A DNA stretch of 64,000 bases from an uncultured Actinomycetes bacterium (GTDB taxonomy: Bacteria; Actinomycetota; Actinomycetes; Nanopelagicales; Nanopelagicaceae). Shown here in pieces: positions 22,259 through 64,000 of the stretch (positions are counted from its first letter, which is position 1; each line of letters opens with the position of its first letter). The DNA lies in the NCBI GenBank assembly GCA_903836945.1, contig CAILSO010000055.1, positions 1 through 64,000 on the forward strand, written 5' to 3'. The translations under genes and the position numbers were made by a program. The notes beneath the pieces were generated by a model that saw nothing but the letters and a program-made list of their open reading frames with translations, ran no database searches and had not been told where the DNA came from.

Positions 22259-22277
22259 TTAGTTAATAATTAGTTAA
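22256..22277. repeat. Perfect 11-bp tandem direct repeat (TAATTAGTTAA x2) between convergent genes
   Basis: 22256-22266 and 22267-22277 identical. Confidence 0.9.
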
Positions 22278-23181
22278 ATTGTCCTGACAGACCGAAGGCT
22301 GACTTATTTAGAACAGTTGTGCCGAGAATTGTTTGTCCATCAGAGTAAACAGCTGAAACTCGGAATGAAGACCAACCTGTTGCAGCACTCTTAGTAACAT
22401 CAATAGAGAGTTGTGATGCTGGAAGGGTTGAAATTAACTTCCAAGCACCGCCATTAACACTGATCTCTACATTGTAATTAGCAATTCCGGTTGAGCTCAT
22501 AGGAGCCTTCCAAGAAATTGTTGCACCGTTGGATGTTAGGTGTGAGTTAATGCTTTGTGGTCCCTCGTGTCCCGCAGTCGCTGCAGATGGGGTACTTGCA
22601 CTGCTAGCCGCTGGTGCTGCAGAAGTTGAAGTTGCTGGTGCCGCAGATGCAGATGTAGATGTAGCGGGTGCTGCTGAGGCAACAGGTGTTGCAGGAGCAG
22701 AGCTCTTTGAGTTTGAAGAGTTACGTGAGACGACGATTAGCGCCAAAATTACTATTCCAACAATAACTGCAAGAACAACACGACTAGATGACTTAGAAGT
22801 CTCCTTTGTCACTTTCGTGGTTTCGGCTGGATTTGTTACGCCAGGCTTTTTTGTCGATGTATTTGTAGATAGCGCTGCTGGTATTGATGCACCAGGAGTG
22901 CGTGAATAAGAATTTGGAACTGGTGGAATAACAATTGAGGCTGTTGAAGATGCTACTTTGGAAGAACGCTTGGCAACTTTCTTCGAAGACTTCTTAACGG
23001 CCTTCTTAGCGCTCTTCTTTACTGCCTTCTTGGCAGTCTTTTTGACACTCTTCTTAGCTGAAGTCTTCTTGGCGGAAGTCTTTTTAGCGCTCTTCTTTAC
23101 TGCCTTCTTGACAGACTTCTTTGCGCTCTTCTTAACAGCTGACTTCTTAGCAACTTTCTTTGCGCTCTTCTTTACTGCCAC
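22270..23181 (-). CDS. Membrane protein with histone-H1-like Lys/Ala N-terminal domain, one TM helix and a C-terminal fibronectin-III-like domain
   Basis: KKSAKK repeats at residues 1-70; TM VVLAVIVGIVILALIVV; FN3-like tail PQSINSHLTSNGATISWKAP...NYNVEISVNGG. Confidence 0.75.
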   Translation of the reverse strand: MAVKKSAKKVAKKSAVKKSAKKSVKKAVKKSAKKTSAKKTSAKKSVKKTAKKAVKKSAKKAVKKSSKKVAKRSSKVASSTASIVIPPVPNSYSRTPGASIPAALSTNTSTKKPGVTNPAETTKVTKETSKSSSRVVLAVIVGIVILALIVVSRNSSNSKSSAPATPVASAAPATSTSASAAPATSTSAAPAASSASTPSAATAGHEGPQSINSHLTSNGATISWKAPMSSTGIANYNVEISVNGGAWKLISTLPASQLSIDVTKSAATGWSSFRVSAVYSDGQTILGTTVLNKSAFGLSGQFN

Positions 23182-39736: not shown

Positions 39737-40048
39737 TTACTTCATTGCCTTTACGCGCATCTTGCGCACGCGCTTCTTTGCTGGGCTCTTCTTGGCGGCC
39801 ACCTTCTTGGTTGTAGCCTTTTTTACTGCAGCCTTCTTAACGGCAGCCTTCTTAGCGGTTGCCTTCTTAGCCGTAGCGCGAACCTTTACAACTTTAACCG
39901 GGGTAGTGCTTGCAGCATTCACGCTATTTGATGTGGCATCTGAACCGGTTGTGGCTGTGCCTGCTGCAAATGCAGTTGTAGGCAAGAATGCAGTTGTAGG
40001 TAAAACCAGTGCAGAGCTAACTGCTGCTGCGATAATAACTTTCTTCAT
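39737..40048 (-). CDS. Predicted exported Lys/Ala-rich H1-like small basic protein
   Basis: Signal peptide MKKVIIAAAVSSALVLPTTAFLPTTAFAA then AKKATAKKAAVKKAAVKKATTKKVAAKKSPAKKRVRKMRVKAMK. Confidence 0.7.
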   Translation of the reverse strand: MKKVIIAAAVSSALVLPTTAFLPTTAFAAGTATTGSDATSNSVNAASTTPVKVVKVRATAKKATAKKAAVKKAAVKKATTKKVAAKKSPAKKRVRKMRVKAMK

Positions 40049-55943: not shown

Positions 55944-56020
55944 GCGTGGGTACTTTAATGCGTGGGTACTTTAATGCGTGGGTACTTTAATGCGTGGGTA
56001 CTTTAATGCGTGGGTAATTT
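55944..56020. repeat. 16-bp tandem repeat (GCGTGGGTACTTTAAT), 4 exact copies plus a partial copy overlapping the 3' end of terC
   Basis: 55944, 55960, 55976, 55992 exact; diverged copy from 56008 in the CDS end. Confidence 0.95.
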
Positions 56021-56899
56021 GTGAGTCTTAAATAAACTCAGCACTGTGGTACCCAAAAGAACTCCCACAATTACTCCAAGGCTTACCTGCAAGGATATTG
56101 AAGGTATGTGAATGCCGAAGACTTTATGCCAACCCTGAGCTTCCGCCGCTTCAAAGACCAGTTTGATTCCGATGAAACCGAGAATTATTGAAAGGCCTTC
56201 GGTTAGGTAAATTAACTTCTGCATTAAGCCACCAATTAAGAAATACAACTGGCGCAGACCCATCAGCGCAAAGATATTTGCAGTCACAATAATGTATGGA
56301 TTTCTAGTTAAACCAAAGATTGCCGGGATCGAGTCAAAGGCGAATAGGACATTGGTGGTTGCAATTGCAACTAGAGCCACAACAAATGTCGAGGCTCCTT
56401 TTTTGCGAATAAAAGTAATTAACCGGCCCTCATGCCACTCTTCTTCTTCACTCTCCCTAATTAATGAGATTGCGGTATAAATCAGGAAGGCGCCAAAGAA
56501 GAAAAATATCCAAGAAAATCGGTTAACTACCGCAGATCCAGCGGCAATGAAAATTCCACGTAAGAAGAGTGAAGAAACTATGCCAATTAAGAGAACTAGC
56601 TCTTCCTTCTCCTTTGCCACCTTTAATCTGGCCAAAATTAAAATAAATACAAATAAATTATCGAAAGATAATGAGTACTCCGTAATCCAACCGGCAAAGA
56701 ATTCCTGGCGAGCTTGATGAGTGGACCACTGACCAAGTGAGAATCCAAAGGCAATTGCCATCGCAACATAAAAGAGCGTCCAAAGTATTGCCGATCGCAA
56801 TGAGGTTGTTTTATTCCGATTTTTAAAGGCCAGAACAAAGTCGAATCCAAGAAAAAGTAAGAGTCCGGCGACCGTCAATTCCCAGACCGATGCGCTCAT
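56003..56899 (-). CDS. TerC family integral membrane protein
   Basis: FFAGWITEYSLSFDNLFVFILI; LFAFDSIPAIFGLTRNPYIIVTANIFALMGLRQLYF. Confidence 0.93.
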   Translation of the reverse strand: MSASVWELTVAGLLLFLGFDFVLAFKNRNKTTSLRSAILWTLFYVAMAIAFGFSLGQWSTHQARQEFFAGWITEYSLSFDNLFVFILILARLKVAKEKEELVLLIGIVSSLFLRGIFIAAGSAVVNRFSWIFFFFGAFLIYTAISLIRESEEEEWHEGRLITFIRKKGASTFVVALVAIATTNVLFAFDSIPAIFGLTRNPYIIVTANIFALMGLRQLYFLIGGLMQKLIYLTEGLSIILGFIGIKLVFEAAEAQGWHKVFGIHIPSISLQVSLGVIVGVLLGTTVLSLFKTHKLPTH

Positions 56900-62057: not shown

Positions 62058-62591
62058 ATGGAATTAAAAATTAAAGAAGTTGCGATCAAATCTGCTGCCG
62101 CAAAATCACCATTCGATGACCGCCTATGGGAGCATCCAATGCTTGAGTTATATAAGGCGGAATTAATCGCCGAAGAGGTTCTCTTACCTAGAAAGCTCTA
62201 CCTTGTACCAACGCCGGAATATTACGGTTCAAGCTTCAACGAACTAGTTGATAGCGAATTTGCACCACAGCCATCACCATTAGCAGAGCTCCCCGATTTG
62301 GAGAGCTGGGTAAATCGATTTGTCTTGACCACGGTTGAAATATGGAGTGGTCGAAGAAGTGCGATGCAACTTGCTCGGTACTGCCATCGCCAAGTTCATC
62401 ATCAATTGGTAAATAAATCAGCAGCTATTACTGCTAGTCCAAAAATTAGGAAGCTTTATATAAGTCAACCAATTGAAGGTGTCTGCGAAACTACAGTTAC
62501 CTTGCGAATCGAGGATCGGGTTAGATCGCTCATTCTCAGGTTCGAGGGTGTAGATAAGCGCTGGCTTTGTACTGAATTAGTATTGCTTTAA
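62058..62591 (+). CDS. Rv3235-like family protein
   Basis: ARYCHRQVHHQLVNKSAA; VCETTVTLRIEDRVRSLILRFEGVDKRWLCTELVLL; next to secA. Confidence 0.7.
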   Translation: MELKIKEVAIKSAAAKSPFDDRLWEHPMLELYKAELIAEEVLLPRKLYLVPTPEYYGSSFNELVDSEFAPQPSPLAELPDLESWVNRFVLTTVEIWSGRRSAMQLARYCHRQVHHQLVNKSAAITASPKIRKLYISQPIEGVCETTVTLRIEDRVRSLILRFEGVDKRWLCTELVLL

Positions 62592-62650
62592 CTTAATTAG
62601 TATTGTTTTAACTTAATTAGTATTGTTTTAACTTAATTAGTATTGTTTTA
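62571..62650. repeat. 20-bp tandem repeat x4; first unit is the 3' end of the CDS, other three are identical
   Basis: actgaattagtattgcttta then acttaattagtattgtttta x3. Confidence 0.95.
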
Positions 62651-62656
62651 AAAGGC

Positions 62657-64000
62657 CTAGCTAGCCCCGTGGCAACGCTTGTACTTCTTGCCTGAACCAC
62701 ATGGGCATGGAGCATTGCGTGATGTTCCGCCTTCAGTATGGACTGAACCATCTTCATCCGCAGCGGTATATCGAAGTTCGGCGGCTGGTGCTACTGGAGG
62801 TGTTAGCCCCTTAGCTTCAACATCGCCTGTTCCTTCTTCAACATTTACTTCGACGTTAAAGAGGAAGCCGACAAGTTCTTCCTTGATCGCATCCATCATC
62901 GCGACGAATAAGTCATAACCCTCTTTTTGATATTCAACAAGTGGGTCGCGTTGGGCCATTGCGCGAAGGCCAATACCTTCTTGCAGGTAATCCATTTCAT
63001 ACAAGTGCTCGCGCCACTTACGATCTAATACTGAAAGTAATACCTTGCGTTCGAGTTCACGCATCACAGGTTCGCTGAGCGTTGCTTCCCTGTTTTCATA
63101 AGCCTTCTCAACATCGGCAAGTACCCGATCCAGCAATAAATCTGAATCGATTGCGCCGTAACTTCCGAGTTCGGCAACTAATCGTTCGGGTGTAAATGAG
63201 ATCGGATAGAGCGCGGTCAGCGCGGTCCAAAGTGTTGCTAGATCCCAATCCTCGGCAAAGCCTTCGGCGGTAGCAGCCTCGACATAGGCACTAACGGTGT
63301 CGGCGATGAATGTTTGAACTTGCTCCTTGATATCTGCACCCTCAAGGACTTCGCGACGCTCGCGATAAACGACTTCGCGTTGGCGGTTCATGACATCGTC
63401 ATACTTCAAAACATTCTTTCGCATCTCAAAGTTGAGTGATTCAACTTGGGTCTGTGCTGATCGAATCGCATTTGAAACCATCTTTGATTCGATTGGCACA
63501 TCATCGGCAATTCCAGCTGCGCCGAGGAATCTCTCGACTAATCCAGAGTTAAAGCGACGCATTAGATCATCCTGCAAAGATAGGTAGAAACGTGATTCAC
63601 CCGGATCGCCTTGGCGACCAGAACGTCCGCGAAGCTGATTATCAATACGACGCGACTCGTGGCGTTCGGTTCCAAGAACGTACAAACCACCAAGACCAAT
63701 CACGACTTCATGTTCCTTAGCCACGGCCGCTTTTTGTTTAGCAATTTCTGCCGGCCATGCCGCTTCGTACTCTTCGGCATTTTCTACCGGGCTTAAGCCA
63801 CGACGTTGTAATTCAAAATCTGCCATAAATTCTGGGTTGCCGCCGAGCATGATGTCGGTACCGCGACCGGCCATATTTGTTGCAACGGTTACGGCGCCAA
63901 CCGTTCCGGCGCGAGCAATAATTGCAGCCTCACGTTCGTGTTGCTTTGCATTAAGTACTTCATGTGGAATGCCACGCTTTTTAAGAAGTGATGAAAGCTC
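62657..64000 (-). CDS. secA: Preprotein translocase subunit SecA, C-terminal part (continues past right edge)
   Basis: Frame stays open upstream of the tracked Met at 63874 ([39 protein letters not shown]); C-terminal [17 protein letters not shown]. Confidence 0.97.

Follow-up and report, generated by a model that had tools for sequence, protein, structure and literature searches.

Stop-codon VNTRs are already described. In Yersinia pestis, 10 VNTRs overlap a stop codon and 6 a start codon, with units mostly of 8-19 bp, and the authors note that those overlapping a stop have a smaller effect on the protein than those overlapping a start (PMC3689786). The array analyzed here is similar to the stop-codon VNTRs of Y. 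pestis, being an array of short units with the gene's stop inside and with changes in copy number that are mostly neutral for the protein. It differs in that the orthologues give the direction of growth (from gene to spacer), which is clearer here than usual, and in that the host is an actinobacterium with a compact genome; moreover, copy-number variation was measured in Y. pestis, whereas the present array is known from one genome. Bacterial minisatellites and VNTRs in general, which are attributed to slipped-strand mispairing and unequal recombination, also have a locus-specific unit of 9-60 bp and near-identical noncoding copies; unlike these in general, the array considered here, from a single genome, is anchored on a coding end. 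Mycobacterial interspersed repetitive units (MIRUs) are a dispersed repeat family of shared sequence at gene junctions in Actinomycetota, and MIRU-like elements are known to overlap stop codons in actinobacteria. The likeness lies in the position at an Actinomycetota gene junction and in the overlap with a stop codon, and the difference in that the present unit is confined to a single site. Tandem repeats at gene boundaries are also reported from mitochondria, for example from the Orseolia oryzae mitogenome (PMC4520695), a genome that is compact like the present one and, unlike it, belongs to an organelle.

Anatomy of the array and of the gene junction

TRF detected a tandem array at 62571-62651 of the window (the whole stretch of DNA that was analyzed, 64,000 nt), with a period of 20, 4.1 copies, 96% matches and a score of 148, whereas 60 surrogates generated from the window by an order-1 Markov model, which have the same dinucleotide steps, scored 65 at most. 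The 20-bp tandem repeat reported in the first-pass annotation is thus real and, with head-to-tail units in the 9-60 bp range and a score far above chance (148 versus 65 at most), is a minisatellite. Three identical copies behind a first unit with two mismatches had also been described, and units 2-4 (62591-62650) are indeed identical and differ from unit 1 (62571-62590) at two positions (Table 1). Unit 1 had been equated with the last 20 nt of the gene, which is right as to the 3' end, although the quoted sequence stops at TTTA, one base short of the full TAA, the final A of which is at 62591. As 62651 is also A, the phase of the array can be slid by one base, and unit 1 may just as well be placed at 62572-62591, where its end is the TAA. 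The whole gap up to the secA stop was said to be filled, which has to be corrected, as five nucleotides (AAGGC, 62652-62656) are left over before the stop at 62657. As in the Y. pestis VNTRs, the stop codon of the gene (TAA, 62589-62591) lies inside the repeat, and the in-frame stops noticed within the units are present as well, the next stop in the frame of the gene being TAG at 62598-62600, in unit 2. With up to 3 mismatches allowed, the 20-bp unit was found at these four places and no further copy was found in the genome assembly (G000).

Table 1 Position, strand and basis of the features at the junction and of the second stop-anchored array in the window.
Feature	Position	Strand	Basis
DUF6459 (Rv3235-like) gene, 177 aa; last 20-21 nt = unit 1	62058..62591	+	ORF; PF20060 E=1e-22; orthologues
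Repeat unit 1, coding (T-E-L-V-L-L-stop)	62571..62590	+	TRF and unit search of assembly
Repeat unit 2, noncoding	62591..62610	+	TRF and unit search of assembly
Repeat unit 3, exactly as unit 2	62611..62630	+	TRF and unit search of assembly
Repeat unit 4, exactly as unit 2; 62651 is one base of a fifth unit	62631..62650	+	TRF and unit search
AAGGC, sole spacer outside the array, 5 nt	62652..62656	.	Sequence
secA 3' part, convergent; SecA_SW and SEC-C domains; leaves the window	62657..64000	-	ORF and domain matches
Second stop-anchored array of the window, 16 bp x 4.8	55944..56020	-	TRF and gene calls

Orthologues of the DUF6459 gene adjoin secA in many relatives. Actinobacterial MAGs of the freshwater type, among them Candidatus Planktophila / Nanopelagicales, make up the related records. 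At the 56 orthologous junctions, defined as loci where the DUF6459 gene and secA were both found, the gap between the two genes ranges from -6 to +32 bp with a median of 3, compared with 65 bp here; the genes overlap at 20 of the 56, are separated by 0-6 bp at another 26, and are never further apart than 32 bp.

Direction of growth and origin of the array

Units 2-4 differ from unit 1 by a G to T change (GAA to TAA) and by a C to T change (CTT to TTT). The orthologues have Glu at the GAA codon in 34 of 54 cases and a stop in none, while at the CTT codon they have Leu in 46 of 54 and Ile in the remainder. Since the family keeps the coding state at both differing positions, the repeat derives from the gene, and unit 1, the coding copy, holds the ancestral state at both. 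The tail of the same gene has also given rise to an array elsewhere. At locus L036 (= G017:C4), an 11-bp array of TTCTTTTATAA x 3 starts in the DUF6459 gene tail, TAA included, and its sister L041 has the same tail without extra copies; this array arose independently of the 20-bp one. The gap at L095 (G018), which is one of nine gaps tested for a decayed tail repeat, resembles such a repeat with a period of about 12 (21/30 matches, shuffle p=0.0005, 1 in 2,001). The proposal of the first-pass annotation, a repeat grown out of the 3' end of the gene, is therefore supported by the junction gaps, by the polarity of both unit differences, by the independent array at the DUF6459 tail in another species, and by two other stop-anchored arrays of this genome, described below, with tails that are conserved in about 20 species.

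We consider it very likely that the array is a stop-anchored minisatellite that grew from the DUF6459 gene tail by ordinary duplication and slippage, with no function needed. In the ancestor, the ends of the DUF6459 gene and of secA, which converge, would have lain almost back to back, and an error of replication or repair may have doubled the final 20 bp of the DUF6459 gene, stop codon included. The protein would not have been altered, the first copy retaining the stop, and the noncoding copy, free from coding constraint, would have acquired the two substitutions, in the direction shown by the orthologues. Slippage or unequal recombination may then have turned the mutated copy into three, to judge from their identity. 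It should be considered that this order of steps (duplication, mutation, expansion) is drawn from one array. With almost no gap between convergent genes, any 10-20 bp duplicated at the junction must include gene sequence, and while the protein would be spared by a duplication that takes in the stop at a gene end, one at a gene start could alter translation or its signals. The junction would be a permissive spot where duplications survive, being tolerated since the proteins of both neighbouring genes stay intact, in a genome carrying many such arrays. Ordinary duplication, slippage and a protein-neutral filter account for everything seen, and the array is a clean, polarised example of the birth of intergenic sequence in a compact bacterial genome from the tail of a neighbour gene, with the stop codon protecting. 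The expansion of units 2-4, regarded as recent in the first-pass annotation, is plausibly so. For metagenomes, the array offers a candidate strain marker. Copy number was also expected to change without altering the protein, which does not always hold, as a crossover between units 1 and 2 could import unit-2 letters: it could place TAA at the GAA codon, with a protein 5 residues shorter, or Phe in place of the last Leu.

A different reading is that the array is kept for a function, as a spacer, a bidirectional transcription end, a readthrough guard or a protein-binding array. It is AT-rich, it lies exactly between convergent 3' ends and it places extra in-frame stops behind the TAA, as might be expected from such roles. 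However, on neither strand does its fold energy depart from that of shuffles (z 0.22 and 0.71), and no terminator-like site was found in the array when we looked for an intrinsic terminator (a G+C-rich hairpin with a T run, stabler than shuffles). A median gap of 3 bp suffices at the orthologous junctions and the 20-bp unit has no copy elsewhere in the genome, and we thus consider a function to be improbable. An origin of the array, or of its copy number, in short-read metagenome assembly is more doubtful still, as an array of 80 bp fits inside ordinary reads, as neither the orthologue-based polarity nor the two substitutions are expected from a k-mer artefact, and as similar arrays are present in other assemblies, single-contig genomes included. 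One should nonetheless bear in mind that the genome is a 56-contig draft and that two of its contigs, C18 and C28, start in arrays sharing one unit, so that assembly does struggle with arrays. Insertion at the stop codon of a mobile or dispersed MIRU-like repeat that replaced the gene's tail, an idea that comes from the stop-codon overlap of such elements in actinobacteria, is scarcely credible, as the unit is confined to this array in G000 rather than lying at several unlinked sites as in the MIRU-like class, as each array examined has its own unit, bar the one common to the two contig ends that look adjacent, and as the tail of the DUF6459 gene is the conserved tail of its family.

Arrays and tail copies across the genome

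The array census covered about 573 kb sampled from the genome, window included, in which TRF found 21 noncoding minisatellites (3.7 per 100 kb). This is about 5 times the density in nine congeners, with 6 noncoding arrays in 890 kb, and the ratio is 5.8 (P=0.0002) when the window and the L036 place are left out. Arrays inside genes, in contrast, do not differ from the congeners (23 vs 26, P=0.31). Two other genera (G029 and G035, single- or few-contig genomes) carry 5-6 noncoding arrays per 100 kb and, therefore, the density of the source genome is not unique. The excess over the congeners provides a natural comparison for the drivers of minisatellite growth. The loss of a repair function as its cause, examined for PolA and NucS, was rejected: the PolA 5'-3' exonuclease domain is present, as in relatives, and NucS has no match in the source genome, which is not distinctive within the genus. 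No full-length NucS match was found in the genus, where 6/27 genomes gave weak partial matches, while the Corynebacterium glutamicum control has NucS. A literature search for Nanopelagicales and tandem repeats gave no matching paper.

For tail copies, each gene's tail was compared with its own spacer, with gaps permuted among genes as the control. Copies of the gene's own tail with a score of at least 7 were present in 22 of 255 3' spacers against 8.4 expected (P=7e-5), 16 of the 22 falling outside the window, compared with 15 against 12.3 expected in the 3' spacers of the congeners. The 5' spacers of the source genome gave 15 against 9.5 expected, which is not significant (P=0.06) and should be read with the gene finder in mind, as it was a simple one in which stops are exact and starts may be off, blurring the 5' control. 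The 5' spacers of some other genera show an excess at top scores (9 vs 2.3 at a score of at least 8), and the 3' bias is, therefore, not universal. We tentatively suggest, as a possibility rather than a probability, that new spacer DNA in this streamlined lineage arises repeatedly from stop-anchored tail duplication, whereby tails would be copied outward beyond the stop, amplified and then eroded into intergenic sequence of ordinary appearance, with the start-side mirror being removed by selection.

A scan for repeats overlapping stop codons against random placement had been proposed in the first-pass annotation. Six of the 21 arrays contain a stop and none a start, where 2.5 and 2.1, respectively, are expected if one unit is placed uniformly, so that stop-anchoring is enriched, if just marginally (P=0.03), with two of the six coming from the window that prompted the analysis. 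The array at L122 (12 bp x 6.7) starts in a gene tail ending RIA-stop (RRTRIA-stop or RRTRLA-stop in nearly all) and that at L121 (16 bp x 6.1) in the conserved tail KGLG-stop (KGIG-stop in many); both tails are conserved in about 20 species without the array. The orthologue of the L122 gene (L122:11722-13218) has an 11-bp stop-containing tandem duplication in G009 and G020 (loci L253 and L257), which is absent from G014 (locus L251). The second stop-anchored array of the window has, inside its first unit, the stop of a minus-strand gene (56003-56899) with a tail that is not conserved in orthologues, so the direction of growth is unreadable. The spacer there is 160 bp, and in most orthologues the next gene is close behind.

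Contigs C18 and C28 start in arrays (L121:6-103 and L131:1-34) with a common 16-bp unit, one array on each strand, and the two contigs are probably neighbours split by an array too long for assembly. Shortly after the window ends, its contig carries five strong arrays in 7 kb (L103:12693-19430), with units of 11-19 bp and up to 8.7 copies. Degenerate CTTCTT-rich repeats of lysine/alanine-type coding on the minus strand are found at 22985-23179 and 39788-39871, within the called genes 22270-23181 and 39737-40048.
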